Below the pieces are notes generated by a model. The model was not told the DNA's origin. It ran no database searches and was given only the letters and a program-made list of their open reading frames with translations. A stretch of DNA of 64,000 bases from Thiothrix subterranea (GTDB lineage Bacteria; Pseudomonadota; Gammaproteobacteria; Thiotrichales; Thiotrichaceae): assembly GCF_016772315.1 (NCBI RefSeq), contig NZ_CP053482.1:3405501-3469500 (forward strand), read 5' to 3'. This document shows, piece after piece, positions 5,953 through 44,432 of this stretch (position 1 is the stretch's first letter; every line of letters starts with the position of its first letter). A program made the translations under genes and the position numbers.

Positions 5953-7050
5953 TTATTCGCTACTGTGAGGGGGCGCTGAGGGTGGAATCGGCGGCGGGGT
6001 TGCTTGCCCTGCAAACAAACCCCTCAGTGCTGCCGTTTCCCCCGCCGCTTGCCAGTTTGCCATGCCCGCTTGCCACACTAGCGTTGCTGCGGTGAGTTGC
6101 CCATTTTGCGCCATTTGTTGCAATTGTGGCATTCCAATCGGGCCACTGGATTCCTGCCCGATCGCAACGTGCCAGCCGGTATCCGGTAACGGTGGTGGCG
6201 TTGCTGTTGCCGGTTTGTTAAGCACTTCTGCCATTTTATTGGCAACCGCAAAACCCATGCCCATATCCAGCGCACTGTTGGAACCACCATTGCCAATGCC
6301 TTGCGCGGTTTGGTATTGCAGGTATTTGTCGAGGTTGCCGATCATGCCCATGCTGGTACGTTTGTCGAGCGCTTCTTCCACTTCGGTGGGCAGGGAAATG
6401 TTTTCCACCAGAATATTGGTGAGCTTCAGGCCATAAGCAGCAAATTCCGGGACAATTTTCTGGGTGACGAATTGCCCCAATTGTTCGTAATTGGCTGCCA
6501 TATCCAGCACCGGGATATTGGCGCTGGCAACGATGCTACTAAAGCGTGTCACAATCAGATTGCGCAACTGGTCGCTGATTTCATCGACGGTGAAGTTCCC
6601 ATCTGTCCCCATGATTTCTTGCATGAATTTGCGCGAATCGTCAATGCGCATTCCATACGTACCGAAAGCGCGAATGCGTACCCCGCCGAATTCGCTGTCA
6701 CGAATCATCACCGGATTGCGCGTTCCCCATTTCAGATTGGTGAATTGCTTGGTGTTGAAAAAATAGACTTCGGCTTTGAATGGGCTGCTGAAACCGTGAT
6801 CCCAATGTTGCAGGGTCGATAGCAGCGGCAGGTTTTGGGTTTCCAGCACGTACATGCCGGGGGTGAGTACGTCGGCTACTTGGCCTTCATTAACGAAAAT
6901 CGCGACTTGCGATTCGCGCACGGTGAGTTTTGCACCGTATTTGATTTCGTTGCCGTGGCGCTCGAAACGGTAAACCATGGTGTCGCTGCTGCTGTCAGTC
7001 CATTCGATGACATCAACAAACTCACCCATCAATTTGTCCCATAATCCCAT
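5953..7050 (-). CDS. SPFH-domain protein with C-terminal GYF_2 domain
   Basis: This 365-residue protein starts MGLWDKLMGEFVDVIEWTDS, the usual opening of the virion-core-protein/YdjI-like SPFH family. The SPFH (stomatin/prohibitin-like) domain spans about 20-240, with VEVEEALDKR-type helix material at its end. Residues about 290-340 (GWHVAIGQESSGPIGMPQLQ) match the GYF_2 adaptor domain, which binds proline-rich peptides. A Pro-rich tail follows that could be its ligand. It probably forms a membrane scaffold. The ATG lies 3 bases past the TelA stop and the stop 14 bases before the zinc-ribbon ATG, so the genes are surely co-transcribed. Confidence 0.85.
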   Translation of the reverse strand: MGLWDKLMGEFVDVIEWTDSSSDTMVYRFERHGNEIKYGAKLTVRESQVAIFVNEGQVADVLTPGMYVLETQNLPLLSTLQHWDHGFSSPFKAEVYFFNTKQFTNLKWGTRNPVMIRDSEFGGVRIRAFGTYGMRIDDSRKFMQEIMGTDGNFTVDEISDQLRNLIVTRFSSIVASANIPVLDMAANYEQLGQFVTQKIVPEFAAYGLKLTNILVENISLPTEVEEALDKRTSMGMIGNLDKYLQYQTAQGIGNGGSNSALDMGMGFAVANKMAEVLNKPATATPPPLPDTGWHVAIGQESSGPIGMPQLQQMAQNGQLTAATLVWQAGMANWQAAGETAALRGLFAGQATPPPIPPSAPPHSSE

Positions 7051-7053
7051 GAT

Positions 7054-8226
7054 TTATACTCCTTGGCGTGGGCTGTCTGCCTTGGCTTTGGCGGAAGTCA
7101 GCGCATGGCGCAATTCGCTTTCCATGACCTTGATTTCTTCCTCGGCTTTGGCACGCATGACCTTGCCTTCGTCGGCAATGCGCAGCGAGTCGTTGATGGT
7201 GTCGATCAGGCTTTGGTTGGCTTTTTTCACCGATTGGATGTCGAACACGCCGCGTTCCATTTGTTTGCGGGTTTCGGCATTGCCCATGCGCAGGGTTTCG
7301 GCATTTTTTTCCAGCAATTCATTGGTAAGGTCGGAAGCTTTTTTGACGACTTCAGCGGCATCGCTCATGCGGAAAATGGTGACGGCTTGCGCTAATTGGT
7401 TTTTCCACAACGGCACGGTGTTGATCAACGTGGAATTGATCTTATTGATCAAGGTTTTGTCGTTTTCTTGCACCAAACGGATGCTGGGCAAGCTTTGCAT
7501 GGCGACTTGGCGGGTTAGGCGTAAATCGTGTACGCGGCGTTCCAGATCGTCACGCGAACTGCGTAAATCGCGTAGGTTTTGCGCCAGAATCATGTCGGCG
7601 GTATTGGCTTCGACTTTGGCAACCAGCGCAGGAATGTCATTGGTTTCGAGGCGACGCAGCTTTTCTTCACCGGCGGCGATATAGGCTTCGAGATTGTGGA
7701 AAAAGTCGAGGTTGGCTTCATAGAGCTTGTCGAGTGTGACCACATCCGTCAGCAATTGGGTTTTGTGGCCTTCCATTTCGTCGGTAATGGTGTCGATTTG
7801 CTTGCGGACTTCTTCGTACTGATTCAGGAATGCGACCACGGGTTTGGCTTTGCCAATGAGTTTTTCCCACCAACTGGGTTCGTCATTGGGGTTGAGGGAA
7901 TCAATGTCGAAACCTTTGATGGCGACAACCATATTGGTCAGGGATTTGCCAGCGGAGCCAATGTCTTTGTTTTTGACACCGTTGAGCATTTTTTCCGAAA
8001 TGGTCGTCATTTGTTCTTGGGTTTTGGTGCCGAAGAACATAATGCTGCTGCGGTCGTTCATATCGATTTCAGCGATGATAGTTTCGAGTTTACTTTTATT
8101 GGTATCATCGGCTTGGGCGTAAGCGACCAGTTCGGTGGTCATTTCTGGCAGGGGAGTGAGTTCGGTACCGGGAACGATGGCAGGCGCGGTTTGGGTTACG
8201 GTGGTTGTGGTTTGAGTTTCATTCAT
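7054..8226 (-). CDS. telA: TelA-family (toxic anion resistance) protein
   Basis: This 390-residue, largely helical, cytosolic protein matches the TelA family. Residues about 60-130 hold the family's early conserved part (DRSSIMFFGTKTQEQMTTIS). The coiled-coil core follows (YEEVRKQIDTITDEMEGHKT, then LLTDVVTLDKLYEANLDFFH) and the ALPSIRLVQENDKTLINKIN-like helix pair. In other bacteria TelA and XpaC-like genes lie together and have been linked to tellurite, antibiotic and envelope stress resistance, but the biochemical role is not settled. Here it lies between the XpaC-like gene (gap 30 bp) and the SPFH gene (gap 3 bp). Confidence 0.88.
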   Translation of the reverse strand: MNETQTTTTVTQTAPAIVPGTELTPLPEMTTELVAYAQADDTNKSKLETIIAEIDMNDRSSIMFFGTKTQEQMTTISEKMLNGVKNKDIGSAGKSLTNMVVAIKGFDIDSLNPNDEPSWWEKLIGKAKPVVAFLNQYEEVRKQIDTITDEMEGHKTQLLTDVVTLDKLYEANLDFFHNLEAYIAAGEEKLRRLETNDIPALVAKVEANTADMILAQNLRDLRSSRDDLERRVHDLRLTRQVAMQSLPSIRLVQENDKTLINKINSTLINTVPLWKNQLAQAVTIFRMSDAAEVVKKASDLTNELLEKNAETLRMGNAETRKQMERGVFDIQSVKKANQSLIDTINDSLRIADEGKVMRAKAEEEIKVMESELRHALTSAKAKADSPRQGV

Positions 8227-8256
8227 GGGGGTCTTCTCCTTGAGTTTATCGCTTAA

Positions 8257-36514: not shown

Positions 36515-36590
36515 GGGCCTATGGCGCAATGGTTAGCGCAGAGGACTCATAATCCTTTGGTTCTAGGTTCGAGTCCTAGTGGGCCCACCA
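36515..36590 (+). tRNA. ileX: tRNA-Ile2 (anticodon CAU, lysidine-modified)
   Basis: This is a 76-base cloverleaf with an encoded CCA. Acceptor GGGCCTA (36515-36521) pairs with TGGGCCC, anticodon stem GAGGA/TCCTT encloses CTCATAA (CAT at 36548-36550), and T-arm CTAGG-TTCGAGT-CCTAG is intact. A CAU anticodon could be Met or Ile2. The short D-loop (AATGGTTA) and the position just after rpoD, as for ileX in Enterobacteria and Pseudomonas, favour Ile2. The mobile island begins directly after it. Confidence 0.9.
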
Positions 36591-36772: not shown

Positions 36773-37069
36773 CTAGAGAATGGCGATGAACCACGCAAAG
36801 CCGTTTAGGTAACATCCGACAATGAACTGCCAAAAATCCCCGCCCACGTCTAAAAAATTCTCTTCCAGCTTTTTTTCTTTGGGGAATATCAACCCGGCGG
36901 ATACGGTAAACAGTACGGCTTGAACGAAGCCTGTTCCCCACCACAGTTCTTTGATTTCTTGCCAGCCTGCGCCGTGAATTAATTGCTCCGGTTTTATCAG
37001 CCATCCGACCATTAATAATATCAGGATGGCATAAACCGCCCGCGCCCATTGTTTCCAGTCTTGATACAA
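36773..37069 (-). CDS. Small membrane protein of the island, unknown function
   Basis: This 98-residue protein has about three hydrophobic stretches (residues 10-25 AVYAILILLMVGWLIK, 45-62 GTGFVQAVLFTVSAGLIF, 78-97 DFWQFIVGCYLNGFAWFIAI). I recognise no family. GAGG lies about 13 bases before the ATG, rather far. It has its own terminator downstream and another upstream, so it is a separate transcription unit. Small membrane proteins like this are common cargo or exclusion factors in phage-derived islands; a role cannot be given. Confidence 0.55.
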   Translation of the reverse strand: MYQDWKQWARAVYAILILLMVGWLIKPEQLIHGAGWQEIKELWWGTGFVQAVLFTVSAGLIFPKEKKLEENFLDVGGDFWQFIVGCYLNGFAWFIAIL

Positions 37070-37186: not shown

Positions 37187-38173
37187 TTATGCGATTAAAT
37201 AAAGTGGTTGCCCGTTTGCCTTATTCGGATTCTGCACAACCAGTTTTTCTGTTTCCAGTTGTTTGCAGGCGTATTTGCTCAATATTTTCAGGGTGTCGCT
37301 ACTGGTTGGCAAACCCGCTGCTTTTAAAATTGGACTGGTTTGCGGTGAACCGACTTTCTGAATATGACCTTCAACAATTGCCGTTCTAATCACCGCCGTT
37401 GCTAGTTCAATCTGTTCGTCGGTCACGCTTCCCCGCTCTGCTTTTTCCGCTGCTGCTGCCTCTGCTGCTGCTAGGTCACGCGCCGCTTGTGCTGCTGCTG
37501 CCTCTGCCCGTGACCGAATTTCGGCCTCCCGTGACCGAGCGGCCTTCTCTGCTGCTTCAGCCCGTGACCGATTTTCTAGTTCACGGATTCGGTCACGCTC
37601 TGCTTGTGCCTGTTCCGCCCTCTCCTGCTCCTCTTTTTCGGCTTCACGTTTGGCTTGAGCATTGGCTTCCATCCGTGACCGACTTTCTAGGTCACGCTCT
37701 GCTTGTGCTTCCATTTCGGCTTTTTGATCGGCTAATTTTTGTTCAAGCATTGCTAGTTTTTCACGCATCTTAATTTTCTCTTCGTCCGTGACCGATTCCG
37801 TGACCGGCGTGACCGACGTGACCGGGTTTCCGTGACCGGTCACGGAATTTCGGTCACGGTCACGGGAATCGATCACGGATTCGGTCACGGGAAGTGGGAG
37901 AGAAAAATGCTCTTCAGCCGTGCCTAACGCGGGGTTGTGGAGGCCAGTTGCGCCGGTACGTTGCTGAAATGGTGTGGCAGGAAATGCGGTGGCAGGGGTG
38001 GCACTCTTGGCAATTTTGCCCGCTACTTTTAACAGGTCTTTATCGTCAAGATCGCACGGGTTAAACAGTTTTGCATAAGCGTCGAATACTTGCGCCTGAA
38101 TATCGGCTTCAGTGGTAGCACCTGACTTTTTAACTGCATCCACTAACGCACGGATGGTGTCAGATACAGACAT
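37187..38173 (-). CDS. Coiled-coil protein with repeat array in its coding DNA
   Basis: This 328-residue protein is of unknown function. Residues 1-55 form a small folded head (SVSDTIRALVDAVKKSGATT). About 70-130 is a linker rich in Val-Thr, and about 130-245 a long Ala/Glu/Arg coiled coil with RSRAEA units. A C-terminal winged-helix-like domain (about 250-328, AVIRTAIVEGHIQKVGSPQT to GQPLYLIA) ends it. The layout recalls KfrA-type plasmid DNA-binding proteins, with the order changed. Its DNA carries fifteen copies of CGTGACCG (see the repeat entry), so it may bind its own gene. The IS4 element sits 27 bases upstream of its ATG and there is no clear ribosome site, so its native promoter may be lost. 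Confidence 0.6.
   Translation of the reverse strand: MSVSDTIRALVDAVKKSGATTEADIQAQVFDAYAKLFNPCDLDDKDLLKVAGKIAKSATPATAFPATPFQQRTGATGLHNPALGTAEEHFSLPLPVTESVIDSRDRDRNSVTGHGNPVTSVTPVTESVTDEEKIKMREKLAMLEQKLADQKAEMEAQAERDLESRSRMEANAQAKREAEKEEQERAEQAQAERDRIRELENRSRAEAAEKAARSREAEIRSRAEAAAAQAARDLAAAEAAAAEKAERGSVTDEQIELATAVIRTAIVEGHIQKVGSPQTSPILKAAGLPTSSDTLKILSKYACKQLETEKLVVQNPNKANGQPLYLIA
37420..37889. repeat. Array of fifteen CGTGACCG/CGGTCACG octamers
   Basis: Exact copies start at 37420, 37509, 37530, 37563, 37590, 37674, 37787, 37799, 37808, 37817, 37831, 37837, 37851, 37857 and 37882. One-base variants lie at 37473 and 37689 (AGGTCACG). Both orientations occur. The densest part is 37787-37889, including the 16-base palindrome CCGTGACCGGTCACGG at 37830-37845. 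About 0.01 copies would be expected by chance in this length. On the coding strand the octamer is read as Arg-Ser-Arg, as Val-Thr in two ways and as Arg-Asp-Arg, so the DNA word rather than one peptide motif is conserved. It may be a protein-binding array (iteron- or centromere-like). Confidence 0.85.
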
Positions 38174-38235
38174 ACGCTGAATTGGCGGGGTAGGGGATTC
38201 GTCATACGCGCCAACTTAAGCCCCTATCCCCTTGA

Positions 38236-39243
38236 TTAAACACGGCTCAACGCCATTTCTCGGCATTGGTTCAACAGAGCAAAAATGGGGCTGGGTAAAC
38301 ATTGCAACGTCCGCTTTCTGGGGCGTTCGCTCAAACTCTTGATATTGTCATCCGCAAAGCGTGCATCGACAGGAAAACAGGCTTTGATGCCTGCTTTGAG
38401 GTCGTCCGCGACGGTTTTCCAAAGTCGCCAATCAGTGAGTTGGCGAGGATTGTCGAGTTTGCGTTTGGCATCGGCAAAGCGACTTTGCGTCATCTTTTCC
38501 AGCACGGCTGCGTACAATAATTTGCCGTGTAGATACAGTTCAGCCAGTTTTGAGCCTTTGTGCGCTCGTAGTTCATCGACATTCAGCAAGCTTTTGAGGC
38601 GTTTGATCACCAATTCAACCTGCCAGCGGACACGATAGAGTGCAGATGCGGTGGTGGTACACAGCACTTCAGGCGGTAATGACGTGAAAATCAGTACCCA
38701 TTCGCTCAGGCAAAGGGCTTCCGTGCTGGGGTTACGTCCTTTGTCTTTGGCGCGTTGTCTGGCTTTGCGCCGGGCTTCAGCAGCCTTTTCTTCGGGTAAG
38801 GGGATGGCATGAAGGTAGCCCTGAATGCGTTTGTTGCCATGACATAACCAAACCGGCACACAACTGGGGCGTTTACCGAGCTTACGTAAGCGCGTGTACC
38901 AGTCGATTTTGACTAGGTGTCCGGTATCATCCCCTTTGCCATCTTCATACAGGTTCATGCTGTGGGCGTTGTAGCGTAATACCACGTCACCGCCCCGGTC
39001 GATGAAAGGGACAAGCGTTTTGGGTTGGTTATAACCCCGGTCAATCAGCACCACATCGCCTGCTTCCAAGGTGTAATGGTCGAGGTTTTCGCCTTCTTTA
39101 TCGGTGGTGACTTCCACTTGATGCAGGCTGAGGTTGATCAAATCAATCGCGATATGCAGGCGGTACGTTGTGGCAGTTGCACCCGGTTCTTGCACGGTCG
39201 AGCCGTCAATGACGATAAAGCGCAGTTTGCCGCTATCGACCAC
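38236..39243 (-). CDS. IS4-family transposase, catalytic part (downstream frame)
   Basis: This frame encodes the DDE catalytic core. Motifs: first Asp in IVIDGSTVQ, second Asp in VLIDRGYNQ, and Glu in YRVRWQVELVIKRLK, a perfect Y-2-R-3-E-6-K signature of the IS4 family. The frame is open upstream to the slippery run at 39306-39312 (CTGGAAGCCTGTGTTCCGTG is read through). The N-terminal part is encoded in the other frame at 39279-39542. A -1 shift at A_AAA_AAA fuses them to a protein of about 435 residues. Either the shift is programmed or the element is an inactivated copy. Confidence 0.85.
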   Translation of the reverse strand: MVDSGKLRFIVIDGSTVQEPGATATTYRLHIAIDLINLSLHQVEVTTDKEGENLDHYTLEAGDVVLIDRGYNQPKTLVPFIDRGGDVVLRYNAHSMNLYEDGKGDDTGHLVKIDWYTRLRKLGKRPSCVPVWLCHGNKRIQGYLHAIPLPEEKAAEARRKARQRAKDKGRNPSTEALCLSEWVLIFTSLPPEVLCTTTASALYRVRWQVELVIKRLKSLLNVDELRAHKGSKLAELYLHGKLLYAAVLEKMTQSRFADAKRKLDNPRQLTDWRLWKTVADDLKAGIKACFPVDARFADDNIKSLSERPRKRTLQCLPSPIFALLNQCREMALSRV

Positions 39244-39278
39244 CTCGCTTAGCCCAAATACGCCTGCCAGCAGGGATT

Positions 39279-39542
39279 TTACCCACGGAACACAGGCTTC
39301 CAGTCTTTTTTTACCGCCGTGTCACTGAGGTAGCCCTGCCTCTGGGCGACCTCCCCGGCGCAACTGCGTAGCGACAAGTCCAAACCGCAGTAAGCCAGCA
39401 CTAACTGGAGCAATTGCAGCGGGCTTTTGATCTTGCGGGGACGGGCGAAGGCTTTGAAGGCATACGCTTGTTCCTGATAATCGGCTGGCAGCACTTGCAG
39501 GAATTGGGCAAAACGGGTATCTAATAATGGTGGCAACTTCAT
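39279..39542 (-). CDS. IS4-family transposase, N-terminal part (upstream frame)
   Basis: This short frame encodes the transposase N-terminal helical domain (MKLPPLLDTRFAQFLQVLPA, then LQLLQLVLAYCGLDLSLRSC). It ends ten codons after the A7 run at 39306-39312. In the zero frame the run reads GTA-AAA-AAA-GAC. Slipping back by one at A_AAA_AAA gives GTA-AAA-AAA-AGA-CTG and continues into the catalytic frame. The start is uncertain: ATG 39542 fits the domain best, with others at 39572 and a TTG at 39602. Confidence 0.75.
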   Translation of the reverse strand: MKLPPLLDTRFAQFLQVLPADYQEQAYAFKAFARPRKIKSPLQLLQLVLAYCGLDLSLRSCAGEVAQRQGYLSDTAVKKDWKPVFRG

Positions 39543-39736
39543 GGGAACTTTCACTTTGGTCGGTAAAAGCATCTGTGTGGGGTTGCCACATCTTGTTTGC
39601 AAGAGGAAACAAGGGGTTAGGGGCTTAAGTTGGCGCGTATGACTCTCAACAGTTCCCCTTTTTTTATGTCGTTAGGTTGTCGACTGTCTGTCAATCGGCT
39701 GTATGAATCAAGGCTCTGTTGATTTTGGCAGTGGTT

Positions 39737-39949
39737 TTAATACCCAATCCGCCGCCGCTGTGAGCAAATCCGCACGATAAAGCGGGGTTTCGTCTTTGGT
39801 TGCGCTGTCAACGTGGCGAACGGTGCAAGCATCACCCACTGCCCGCTTCTGGCATGGAGACACGCGCCGCCGTAATCGGTAAAAGTGCCACTGAGTACCG
39901 CGCCGCGATATACCTTGTAAACGCCTGATTTGATTAATGAGTTAGTCAT
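39737..39949 (-). CDS. Small phage-type protein after the head protease
   Basis: This is a 70-residue basic protein (MTNSLIKSGVYKVYRGAVLS, then TFTDYGGACLHARSGQWVML). The start at 39949 overlaps the protease stop by ATGA, which is why I prefer it to the longer frame from 40006. I recognise no family; it looks like a small beta-rich phage accessory protein. The IS4 element lies about 90 bases downstream and may have cut off later genes of the operon. Confidence 0.5.
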   Translation of the reverse strand: MTNSLIKSGVYKVYRGAVLSGTFTDYGGACLHARSGQWVMLAPFATLTAQPKTKPRFIVRICSQRRRIGY

Positions 39950-40632
39950 GAGTAATGCCCTCTGCCCTGCCCGCTGTGTGGTAAGCAGAGTGTGCCGGGT
40001 TTGCACTTGTAGGCATTGATGATGTCACGCCCGCTGCCAGTCATGCCCGCGCCGTCGCTGGCGGTATCCGGGTCAACACTACCGATAATCGCATCTATCA
40101 AACCGGCGGCTTTTGCCTCTGGTGCGGTGTACCACGTTTCGGCATTCAGCAGCGCTTGCACTTCGTTGGGAGTCTTGCGTAACTTGCTGGCATAGTGAGG
40201 AATAATTGCCGCTTCGTGTTTTTGCAAGACGGTGGCTGTTTTGGCGTGATCGCCAGCGTCGCCATAGGTGAACCCTTGCGCCCGGTGAATCATGATCATA
40301 CCGTTTGCCGCGCATTCGATCTTATCCGCTGCCAGCATGATTACCGAGCCGATGGATAGGCAGTAACCCATTATCTTTACGGTGATTTTTGCGGGGTGTT
40401 GTTCGAGCAGGTTGTAGATGGGCAAGCCATCGTTGAATGCGCCGCCGACGGTGTTGATGTACACGTTAATGGTGTCGGCTTTTTTTGCTGCATCAAGATT
40501 GCGCTTGAATTGGTCAAGGTTGGCAGTTTCGCCGCCGATTACGCCGAACAGGTATATATCAGCGGTTTTGCTGGTGGCTTTTGCGGTAGCGCGGTCTAGG
40601 TTTGCAGGTGTGCCGGTGTGCCGGTGTTGCAA
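39946..40632 (-). CDS. Phage head maturation protease, ClpP fold (S14/S49-like)
   Basis: This 228-residue protein is of the ClpP-like prohead protease type, which trims capsid or scaffold proteins in tailed phages. Residues 24-65 (IYLFGVIGGE, VYINTVGGAFNDGLPIYNLL) form the ClpP-like sheet. Ser93 (GYCLSIGSVIMLA) and His116 (MIMIHRAQG) match the catalytic Ser and His; the Asp is likely in the segment after AETWYTAPEAKAAGLIDAII. The start is TTG at 40632, seven bases past the preceding stop, probably coupled. No capsid gene follows, so it is either a leftover or used by a satellite. Confidence 0.8.
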   Translation of the reverse strand: MQHRHTGTPANLDRATAKATSKTADIYLFGVIGGETANLDQFKRNLDAAKKADTINVYINTVGGAFNDGLPIYNLLEQHPAKITVKIMGYCLSIGSVIMLAADKIECAANGMIMIHRAQGFTYGDAGDHAKTATVLQKHEAAIIPHYASKLRKTPNEVQALLNAETWYTAPEAKAAGLIDAIIGSVDPDTASDGAGMTGSGRDIINAYKCKPGTLCLPHSGQGRGHYS

Positions 40633-42216: not shown

Positions 42217-42474
42217 TCATGCCGCCTCTGACAGTTTTACGCTTTGCATTTCTTCGCGGATAACGCGCCGCAAGGTTGCTTCTAGGGGTTCGCCCTGTTG
42301 CTTGATATGCGCTTTCAGGGTGTCATTGATCAGGCTTTGATAATTGCCGCCGCCCTGCACTTGGTCACGAAACCACTGGATAACTTCAGGGTCGAGCCTG
42401 ATGGTGATTTTCTCTTTGCTGGTTTTGATAACCGCGCCGCGTACACCGCTGCTGAAATCATAGTGTTCTTTCAT
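42217..42474 (-). CDS. brnA: BrnA-family antitoxin
   Basis: This 85-residue ribbon-helix-helix antitoxin has the core ITIRLDPEVIQWFRDQVQGG-NYQSLINDTLKAHI, typical of BrnA/CopG-type antitoxins. It binds and neutralises BrnT and represses the operon. It overlaps the brnT stop by four bases (ATGA) and follows it, the normal BrnT-BrnA order. Confidence 0.88.
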   Translation of the reverse strand: MKEHYDFSSGVRGAVIKTSKEKITIRLDPEVIQWFRDQVQGGGNYQSLINDTLKAHIKQQGEPLEATLRRVIREEMQSVKLSEAA

Positions 42475-42755
42475 ATTCCACCTGTGAACTGTTGATGTTC
42501 TGTCTTGTCTGCCTTACGCGCTGAAATGATGCGGATAACATCCTCTTCACGGTAAACATGGACAACGACAACAACACGGTTCTTTGCATCCATTCCAAGA
42601 GCAATATAGCGTTGCTCATCGTAATGACTGGAATCTTCTATGATGATGGTTTCATCATCGTAAAAAATCCCGGTCACGTCTGCGAAGTCGATACCGTGCT
42701 TCTTTAGGTTGGTTTGGCGCTTGCGCTCATCCCATGTAAATATTAACTCTTCCAT
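42471..42755 (-). CDS. brnT: BrnT-family ribonuclease toxin
   Basis: This 94-residue toxin is of the BrnT family, whose members have a RelE-like fold and cut RNA. Motifs: FTWDERKRQTNLKKHGIDFA at the start, DETIIIEDSSHYDEQRYIAL, then VVVVVHVYREEDVIRIISAR, with the conserved Arg and the Ala-Arg-Lys ending. Complete length. It forms a toxin-antitoxin pair with the downstream brnA and probably stabilises the island. Confidence 0.9.
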   Translation of the reverse strand: MEELIFTWDERKRQTNLKKHGIDFADVTGIFYDDETIIIEDSSHYDEQRYIALGMDAKNRVVVVVHVYREEDVIRIISARKADKTEHQQFTGGI

Positions 42756-42788: not shown

Positions 42789-43328
42789 TCAAGACTTACC
42801 CTGTAAGCGTGTTGTCAGGGTGTCGGTTGCGAGCTGGCGCTGATAGTCATCAATCGTGCCGTCGGGCGTGCCGTCGAGCTGATAGCGGTCTGTGCCGTGT
42901 TTGAGGTTTTGCAGGTAGACACCGTGATTAACGTGCATCCTCAGCAGCTTTTGCACAACGTTCTTGCTTGCGCCGGGGAAGTGCTCCTCGTTCACCAGTC
43001 GGAAGATTTCCTTTTCAATACCGATTGCCAGCGGTTGGCAGTTGAACCAGACGCGGAAGGCGTTTAGGCGGTCGTTCAATTCGCGCATCTTCAGTTGTGA
43101 CGGTGGCGTGACCTGCTTTTTCGGTGCGGGTGGCTTGCGCGGTTTCTTGGGTTTGGCGCTGGCGGGTGGCTTGGGTTTGGGTGCGGGGATGCGCTGCACT
43201 TGCGGCAGTTCGTCACGCCTGATAATGCGTTTGCCGGTGCGTTGGATTGTGCCAGCGGTGGCATTTACCGTGCCACTGTTGGCAGGTTTGCGCGTAATGC
43301 TTAAGGTTTTTTTCGGGGTGTCGGTCAT
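42789..43328 (-). CDS. ProQ/FinO-domain RNA chaperone of the island
   Basis: This 179-residue protein has a Pro/Lys-rich, disordered N-terminal half (residues about 10-75) and a ProQ/FinO RNA-binding domain (about 80-165): LNDRLNAFRVWFNCQPLAIG, IEKEIFRLVNEEHFPG, VVQKLLRMHVNHGVYLQNLK and RYQLDG. Start at ATG 43328, with AAGGAAG seven bases ahead. FinO-domain proteins bind structured small RNAs and 3' ends. Mobile-element versions such as FinO control conjugation through antisense RNA. It lies 15 bases downstream of the integrase gene, so it may regulate an island RNA. Confidence 0.85.
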   Translation of the reverse strand: MTDTPKKTLSITRKPANSGTVNATAGTIQRTGKRIIRRDELPQVQRIPAPKPKPPASAKPKKPRKPPAPKKQVTPPSQLKMRELNDRLNAFRVWFNCQPLAIGIEKEIFRLVNEEHFPGASKNVVQKLLRMHVNHGVYLQNLKHGTDRYQLDGTPDGTIDDYQRQLATDTLTTRLQGKS

Positions 43329-43343
43329 GTCCAAACTTCCTTT

Positions 43344-44432
43344 TCAGGTATTGATTGCCGCCGCTGCGGTCTTGGATGCGGATAGTGTACCGGATGTCAG
43401 GCTTAAGAGCTTGTCGGTGATGGTTTGCATCGGTTCTCTGAGACTTTCCACGTCGGTCACGATGTAACCGCCGGTCACATCCGCCGCGCCGGTCTTGTGG
43501 TTGATCAGGCGCTTCAGGGTATAGCCGCGAACACCGATGTTTTCGGCAGTGGTGGCGAACGTGCGTCTCAGGTCGTGCATTTCCCAGTGAATACCCGACC
43601 TGGTGCGGATGGCCTTTATCGTTTTCTCCACGCTGGACAGGGGCGAGGTGTTGTCAGTCGCCCGGAATACTAAGCCGCTGCCCTGTCCACTGCGGGCTTG
43701 CCATTGCGTCAACAAATCGCGGGTGTAGGTGGTGAGCGGCAGTGTGTGCGCTTGGTGGTTTTTGGTGTCTTCCAGCCTGATCGTATTGTTGATCAGGTCG
43801 ATATTTTCCCACAGCAAGGTGCTGGACTCCGTGCACCGGTAGCCACTGAACAGGGTTAGCAGGAAATAGACCCGCGCCTTTTCAGCGAGTGCGCCGCCGT
43901 ACCATTCCGGCAGTGAATTTACCGCTTCGTACCAGATCGGGAGTTCGTCATTTTTGATAATGGTCTGTTTGCGGTCAACGCGGTTCCATGCGCGGCTGTG
44001 TGAGAGGCGCTTGACCGGATTGGATTTGATCAGCGGTTGCTGATTGTCATCAAAGTATTCCTCAGCAGCGTAATTGAAGATGCAACGTAACACGCGCATC
44101 TCGTTATTTGCCCGTGCCTCTGAGTGTTGGCTACGTTCGCGGTGACGTTCCTCTACCATGTCACGGGTGATGCTGATCAACGGCAGAGACTCCCAGTCGG
44201 AAAAACCGACGCTGACAGCACGCTCATAATCGGCAATCGTGACGGGCTTCAGATTCTTATGCGATGTCAGATAATCCTTGAACACTTTTCCCAAGGTCAT
44301 GTTAGCGAATTGCTGCCCCTCTGCCCTGATTTGCTTTTGCTGGTAACTCGTTTGGCGGGTGGTGGCTATCAGCGAAAGTTCCTTACGTTTAAAGCGGCTC
44401 GCTGTTTTTATTTGTGCTGATCCACAAACCAC
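43344..44432 (-). CDS. Tyrosine-type integrase of the island, probably N-terminally shortened
   Basis: The 362-codon frame holds a phage-type core-binding domain (about 46-140, TLGKVFKDYLTSHKNLKPVT) and a catalytic domain with all active residues: Arg199 (SGYRCTE), His286 and Arg289 (HDLRRTF), His312 (INHKTG) and Tyr323 (GGYIVTD). P4-like integrases of this kind normally start with a DUF4102 arm-binding domain of about 90 residues. Here only its last part (SRFKRKELSLIATT) is left, and the frame runs into the end of narL, using a GTG start at 44432. The island edge or a deletion seems to have cut the gene. It may be inactive. Confidence 0.8.
   Translation of the reverse strand: MVCGSAQIKTASRFKRKELSLIATTRQTSYQQKQIRAEGQQFANMTLGKVFKDYLTSHKNLKPVTIADYERAVSVGFSDWESLPLISITRDMVEERHRERSQHSEARANNEMRVLRCIFNYAAEEYFDDNQQPLIKSNPVKRLSHSRAWNRVDRKQTIIKNDELPIWYEAVNSLPEWYGGALAEKARVYFLLTLFSGYRCTESSTLLWENIDLINNTIRLEDTKNHQAHTLPLTTYTRDLLTQWQARSGQGSGLVFRATDNTSPLSSVEKTIKAIRTRSGIHWEMHDLRRTFATTAENIGVRGYTLKRLINHKTGAADVTGGYIVTDVESLREPMQTITDKLLSLTSGTLSASKTAAAAINT

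Follow-up and report, generated by a model that had tools for sequence, protein, structure and literature searches.

The closest precedent that we found for the genes described here is the SpdA2/sps system of Streptomyces plasmids. In the passages of the source cited here, SpdA2 of pIJ101 is a plasmid DNA-binding protein that recognises a short, repeated palindrome inside its own coding region, and its loss affected segregational stability and not transfer (PMC4170104). According to the same passages, SpdA proteins are 117-163 aa long with a conserved, putative DNA-binding part at the N terminus, and the 12-bp sps word hardly changes from plasmid to plasmid though the proteins vary (PMC4170104). 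KfrA of plasmid RA3 is described, in the excerpt used here, as a coiled-coil plasmid DNA-binding protein with a role in maintenance; its HTH lies at N29-R52, five 9-bp repeats overlap the kfrA promoter, and the gene is autoregulated (PMC7783346). The phi29 protein p16.7 is, in the cited part of its source, an integral membrane protein with a suggested role in drawing mobile DNA to the membrane, and acts through terminal protein and single-stranded DNA (PMC4974454).

The window analysed here is a 64 kb (64,000-nucleotide) stretch of the Thiothrix subterranea genome, in which a sequence-only reading had singled out a dense array of the octamer CGTGACCG inside a coiled-coil gene of a mobile island. 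Its features are as follows.

36515..36590, plus strand: tRNA-Met, the island edge and a possible attachment site
36773..37069, minus strand: 98-aa hydrophobic ORF of cluster c22, which adjoins members in 7 loci (no Pfam match)
37187..38173, minus strand: 328-aa ORF, a truncated member of a membrane/DNA-binding-like family (family comparison)
37187..37429, minus strand: C-terminal head of about 80 aa, common to L132 of another genus
37420..37889, both strands: array of 15 CGTGACCG words (word count and codon-shuffle control)
Octamer starts, first eight: 37420-, 37509+, 37530+, 37563+, 37590-, 37674+, 37787+, 37799+
Octamer starts, last seven: 37808+, 37817+, 37831+, 37837-, 37851-, 37857-, 37882-
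37828..37847, no strand: perfect palindrome of 20 bp, TTCCGTGACCGGTCACGGAA (sequence and palindrome scan)
37892..38173, minus strand: conserved region of about 94 aa, upstream of the array, with the end TGLHNPALGTAEEHFSLPL
38236..39602, minus strand: IS transposase ORFs directly upstream of the remnant (transposase named from sequence)
43344..44432, minus strand: integrase-like ORF of the island (named from sequence)

An exact count found the array where it had been reported: 15 of the 21 copies of CGTGACCG in the window (both strands) fall within 37420-37889, a span of 470 bases, and 100 dinucleotide shuffles of the whole window gave a mean of 2.48 copies and a maximum of 7. The genome as a whole carries 310 copies (163+147) in 4,077,558 bases, compared with 396 (195+201) of its reversed form; the octamer thus shows no genome-wide enrichment, and its high density is local. 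A genome-wide packaging or uptake word was ruled out on this ground. Judged by the 295 copies elsewhere in the genome, 470 bases should contain about 0.03, which is higher than the 0.01 given earlier. As had been noticed, the words stand in both orientations and in different frames, using five of the six strand/frame combinations, and are read as RDR (3), RSR (4), PVT or SVT (3+4) and TGHG (1). When the codons of the window gene were shuffled 5000 times with the protein preserved, the mean was 1.66 octamers and the maximum 8, versus 15 observed, which bears out the proposal that the DNA word, and not the peptide alone, is kept. The palindrome placed at 37830 is indeed there, but is 20 bp long rather than 16; its 14-bp core, CGTGACCGGTCACG, occurs a single time in the 63 genomes of the family, at the window array. 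Conservation of the octamer across homologues was ruled out, since CGTGACCG is absent from all 24 other places matched by the window protein.

Searched against the 16 genomes of the genus, the window protein matches 25 places (counting its own) in 10 of them, and its first 100 residues account for most of the matching. Most of these places are open frames of 460-880 aa with membrane segments at the start, and in many relatives an array of another word occupies the position of the window array, ahead of a variable head of about 90 aa. The architecture of the family is an N-terminal membrane part, a linker and a C-terminal DNA-binding-like head. The window gene, which had been assigned to a mobile island, proved to be a truncated member of this mobile-element family with an IS at the break, a remnant in which the array and the head remain. 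No hydrophobic segment was found in its ORF, the middle of the protein is Ala/Glu/Arg-rich with a coiled-coil look by eye, and the membrane half was not found anywhere in the window. As it lacks the membrane part, the window copy would be a soluble binder if expressed, or else a relic.

Several observations concern the surroundings of this remnant. In the window (38173-39602), L018, L036 and L156 the family gene breaks off at one shared point, after ESP; in three of these loci, the window, L036 and L156, the break coincides with transposase ORFs of the same clusters, c39/c40, marking an IS hot spot. No exact direct repeat of at least 13 bp was found up to 50000 as an attachment repeat for the tRNA-Met gene. 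The window locus and the L031 element are flanked alike by ORF clusters c86-c88. BrnT-like, antitoxin-like (named from sequence) and ProQ/FinO-family ORFs lie at 42217-42755 and 42789-43334 of the island, and the same clusters accompany the L046 element; a ClpP-like protease ORF is located at 39946-40632 (Pfam CLP_protease, E 1e-27).

Across the family Thiotrichaceae, members were found in 31 genomes out of 63 and in seven of eight genera, and an order-level search covered the same 63 genomes. Among 369 genomes of the class, with at most three candidates scored for each at E 1e-10, matches were obtained in 3, all within the bacterial family itself. The fetched loci held 105 member ORFs; 96 were kept, and 9 fragments or X-containing ORFs were left out. 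In genome G015, members sit on three plasmids and on the longest contig, and none was among the matches listed on other contigs. Four hydrophobic segments were counted in 57 of 73 ORFs of at least 430 aa outside a lexA-linked class (a set not quite the same as the 73 members of the array count below) and in 20 of 23 ORFs of that class. The four segments come with a loop of about 130 aa, in which two cysteines are invariant in the 11 rows of alignment A1 and not across the 75 rows of A2.

The window protein had no Pfam match, a Pfam scan of further members gave none above the cut-off, and a PHROG scan of the window protein returned weak tail and head matches for the coiled coil (best E 0.0049). 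Among 75 members scanned, four NCBIfam families and one PADLOC family matched one member each, and in PHROG three families matched 3-9 members and four matched one. When 9 proteins were scanned singly, PHROG matches fell on zinc-finger heads only. Two members tried against a phage collection had no match; in a plasmid collection the window protein had none and L028 matched 2 Thiothrix records. A literature search, with subscription papers mostly outside its scope, found no description of the family.

Each of the 96 members was scored as having an array if one 8-mer stood at least three times in the DNA preceding its head; 7-mers and 8-mers were used because repeated 6-mers gave too much noise. 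Outside the lexA-linked class, 60 of 73 members, drawn from 20 genomes, have an array, compared with 13.0 expected from synonymous shuffles, and the other 13 have none; at four or more copies the count is 35 of 73 versus 1.4. In the lexA-linked class an array was found in 1 of 23 members versus 1.6 expected (class contrast, Fisher p 1e-11). Such arrays might be put down to neutral repeat expansion of low-complexity linker DNA: the linker is indeed of low complexity, the arrays of L039 and L167 are partly tandem, and codon usage alone would give those 13.0 of the 60 arrays. Neutral expansion may hold for some 3-copy cases. As a general explanation we consider it very improbable, because the window words occupy different frames and both strands, sites are palindromic, heads and words covary, copies lie beyond the stop codon in 4 of 60 array members (10 copies versus 1 reversed) and in L167/L168, and arrays are nearly absent from the lexA-linked class.

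L167 and L168 are two near-identical contigs of a viral collection with the zinc-finger head of L039 and 26 copies of its word, GGAACGGA, some of them past the stop codon. Their linker peptide is also like that of L039, so common descent explains part of the agreement in words, and these contigs were not used to define the pattern. By eye, phage baseplate/tail-like ORFs, which may be phage cargo or else host DNA at the flank, lie beside the array gene of L167 (1500-8514).

The words are concentrated in the genes themselves, with 278 in 102.5 kb versus 49 in 552 kb of flanks, where reversed words number 19; part of the 49 belongs to a twin element in L107. This locus has two family elements in opposite orientation within 15 kb, with the same word. 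A membrane-tethered transcription regulator, with the array as its operators, would agree with the palindromic form of the sites and with the next downstream ORF (called mechanically, at least 60 aa, within 500 bp), which is co-oriented in 43 of 60 cases. However, sites deep in the coding region and rarer in the flanks do not suit operators, and the next ORF faces the other way in 17 of 60 cases, which makes a membrane-bound regulator less likely; we regard this explanation as improbable.

The words vary with the C-terminal head and not with the membrane part. Grouped by head identity, pairs of members share a repeated 7-mer in 19 of 838 cases below 0.2, 11 of 549 at 0.2-0.35, 2 of 50 at 0.35-0.5, 17 of 116 at 0.5-0.7, and 26 of 43 at 0.7 or above. 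Over 1596 pairs from the 57 of 60 array members having a membrane part, the partial correlation of word with head, given the membrane part, was 0.31 (0 of 2000 permutations), versus 0.05 for word with membrane part, given the head (83 of 2000 permutations). Of 27 pairs with unlike heads but membrane parts at least 0.6 identical, 2 shared words; of 11 pairs with membrane parts less than 0.3 identical and heads at least 0.7 identical, 5 did. Five of the six non-sharing pairs among the latter involve L084, in which both the word and the helix residue differ, and the sixth sets a Lys head against a Glu head. The permutation and shuffle statistics ignore the relatedness of members, and joint inheritance of adjacent DNA can explain part of the link between word and head.

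The largest head class, with 19 members, is defined by the motif W[IV]QK (the WIQK class), and its key residue, at one helix position, follows PSV/PSI. This residue is Glu in four of four genes with CCCTTAG, Lys in four of four with CCGTTAG, Arg in three of three with CCCTCAG or CCGTCAG (CC[CG]TCAG), and Asp in three of three with CCCCGTG; Asp also occurs in one gene with CCACCAG, and Asn in one with CCACGTG. Exceptions are L041 and L142, which have Lys together with the words ACCTTCGG and CGGCTTCA, and L143, which has Asn; the words of these three could not be aligned, and the code was tested on the remaining 16 of 19 members. By normalised mutual information with the complete word, the helix column came first (0.85; p 0.0005, as low as 2000 shuffles allow). 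Columns 3, 5 and 1, next in rank, belong to the linker peptide, which the array itself encodes. When only the third of the seven letters was considered, linker column 5 scored higher than the helix column (0.54 vs 0.45). A preference of Lys and Arg for G and of Glu for C is chemically sensible. The Glu and Lys variants each occur on two head backgrounds (SNKETGSRTHD and AP-type), which argues against joint inheritance as the sole cause of the code.

For the window head, which is 44% identical to that of its one close relative in the set, L132 from another genus, both genes have TGACC words and palindromes of one frame. The L132 gene contains 15 TGACCG and the palindrome ACTTGACCGGTCAAGT, which is the window palindrome with changed flanks. 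The commonest 8-mer in the scored region of L132 is a coiled-coil codon repeat, so the TGACC match was found by looking and not by rank. No avoidance of words between co-resident elements was seen in two pair tests: words were shared in 2 of 20 same-genome vs 14 of 100 different-genome pairs of the WIQK class, and in 11 of 108 vs 74 of 1662 pairs of all array members.

Perfect palindromes of at least 12 bp numbered 37 versus 8.83 expected in the 60 array members, 7 versus 2.17 in the 13 members without an array, and 4 versus 4.40 in the lexA-linked class. Many sites are perfect palindromes of 16-20 bp, and other head classes have near-palindromes, such as AATGAACGCGCTCATT and CTGTACACGTACAG, or perfect ones such as CTACACGCGCGTGTAG. 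A second head type, with zinc-finger cysteines, goes in several members with an array in the same layout, and its PHROG matches include the fingers of HNH endonucleases.

Array and head are exchanged together as a cassette. L078 and L079, on two plasmids of one genome, have 93-100% DNA identity over blocks 2-19 (60 columns each), and from the array on the identity falls to 78% and then to 30-51%. L152 and L038 are 100% identical for about 1.4 kb and then diverge.

The lexA-linked class comprises 23 of the 96 members, with the head motif GKP[EQ][RK]Q and, near 19 of the 23, a LexA-like ORF; within the genus, 15 of 16 genomes have it. Of the 73 other members, 62 have a nearby ORF of integrase, resolvase, AlpA/MerR or replication type, versus 0 of 23 in this class. 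The sole exception with an array, L140, has three copies of GTGACCGA, which resembles the window word; these repeats come perhaps from Val-Thr-Asp/Glu codons. Hidden arrays were sought in the loci of this class, and 16 of 23 were without any 8-mer present four times in 500 bp, six have some 8-mers at four, and L128 has 12 CTGAATCA. The latter lie at 7343-7629 of L128, inside the ORF 6407-8236, next after the lexA-class gene.

In L110-L129, L134, L140 and others, the array-less member stands between lexA-like and secreted coiled-coil-like ORFs (named from sequence). In the genus, 15 of 16 genomes share this layout, often with a small hydrophobic ORF. By profile comparison the heads of mobile-element members and those of the lexA class are homologous (E 3e-10, a single comparison); the window head matched the lexA-class head more weakly (E 5.8e-5, probability 66%, also a single comparison), and its profile match with the mobile heads covers just 26 columns. 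Profile searches of solved structures gave no significant match, and the 'winged helix' of the head is an impression from the sequence. The array-less paralog may be a host membrane, DNA-binding-like protein.

The whole pattern is probably best read as a head that binds the array in its own gene and ties the DNA of the element to the membrane. For the first part of this reading, physical binding of the head to its own array, the covariation of words and heads makes the claim very likely, and the earlier idea of a self-binding plasmid protein was a useful lead in this respect. That tethering is performed by one and the same molecule is less firm, and we judge it fairly likely. The N-terminal part of intact members would cross the inner membrane and the linker would reach into the cytoplasm; with four hydrophobic segments and a loop of about 130 aa, the head would be cytoplasmic if the loop is periplasmic. 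The head would bind DNA, probably as a dimer, on palindromes of 14-20 bp. As the sites are embedded where the gene encodes its linker, adjacent to the head, a binding site and the head that reads it are passed on and swapped as a single cassette.

Each of the known systems has part of this arrangement. SpdA2/sps resembles the family in the repeated palindrome within its own coding region and in its hosts, which are filamentous too; it differs in that intact family ORFs are longer (about 430-860 aa) and have membrane segments, that the head is C-terminal, and that one conserved word there stands against many words here, which diverge with the head. KfrA is similar in its coiled coil and in having several short repeats, in either orientation, at the gene that encodes it. 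However, it combines an N-terminal HTH with a coiled coil, whereas the family starts with membrane segments and has its head at the C terminus, and its operator lies over the promoter whereas the family words lie in the 3' part of the gene. These comparisons do not support the suggested KfrA/ParB type, and nor does the lack of a Pfam match to the window protein. Like the family, phi29 p16.7 is a membrane protein for mobile DNA, but an array of words in its own gene is unmentioned in the cited part of its source (PMC4974454).

The arrays could also be iterons of a replication origin, with the protein as a replication factor. Replication-type ORFs lie within about 5.5 kb of 56 of 73 members, with Phage_GPA, Phage_rep_O and Rep3 ORFs often just upstream, and in-gene arrays of repeated sites resemble iterons. 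The lambda O gene, which carries ori iterons inside, is likewise a case of binding sites within the gene of the binding protein, but O is a soluble initiator of one replication type. The module described here accompanies several types (rolling-circle-type Phage_GPA, Phage_rep_O, Rep3 and primase/DUF3987); a role as the origin for any single type is therefore unlikely, and the word tracks the head of a membrane protein. We consider an origin function improbable.

A more serious rival, which we nevertheless rate as unlikely, is a transfer signal, in which the head would mark the element for passage to another cell, by way of the filament, a conjugation channel or a phage channel. The module is found on elements of different make-up, a membrane part is present, and a small hydrophobic partner ORF lies nearby (cluster tm4, 41 loci). 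The hosts form filaments, as stated in the cited part of the source, which would also suit transfer (PMC8570282). However, no translocation-ATPase or relaxase family was found among the members scanned, and the array-less paralog class adjoins a lexA-like ORF in 15 of 16 genomes of the genus. In Streptomyces, the C-terminal winged-helix domain of TraB, an FtsK-like ATPase, reads plasmid-specific 8-bp clt repeats near its own gene; no such ATPase domain was found in the family, in contrast to TraB.

If tethering is accepted, maintenance is a possible purpose, proposed here tentatively: the membrane tether may mainly keep the excised or replicating form of the element from loss. No ParA-like cluster was among the common neighbours listed, and by eye the ParA-like ORFs of three plasmids lie kilobases away from the gene. 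These plasmids have ParA-like ORFs besides the family gene, so maintenance is plausible and not exclusive.

The results suggest an exchangeable address by which every element fastens its own DNA to the cell membrane. A bolder and rather doubtful extension is a self-addressing membrane tether, acting in cis, whose addresses are swapped as array-plus-head cassettes. Coupled transcription, translation and membrane insertion would hold the nascent protein beside its own gene, and the head, made last, would lock in cis onto the array just upstream. Each element would in this way anchor its own DNA, possibly for sharing between the cells of a filament, and new addresses would arise by swaps of array plus head, with two apparently unrelated kinds of head in use.

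The family offers a natural series of heads paired with candidate DNA words, each word being written in the gene of its own head. This makes it possible to propose a protein-DNA recognition code from sequence data and to test it by the change of a single residue. For the biology of this filamentous bacterial family, the findings point to a maintenance or transfer device common to many kinds of mobile DNA, and the array-less paralog beside the lexA-like ORF suggests a host function.
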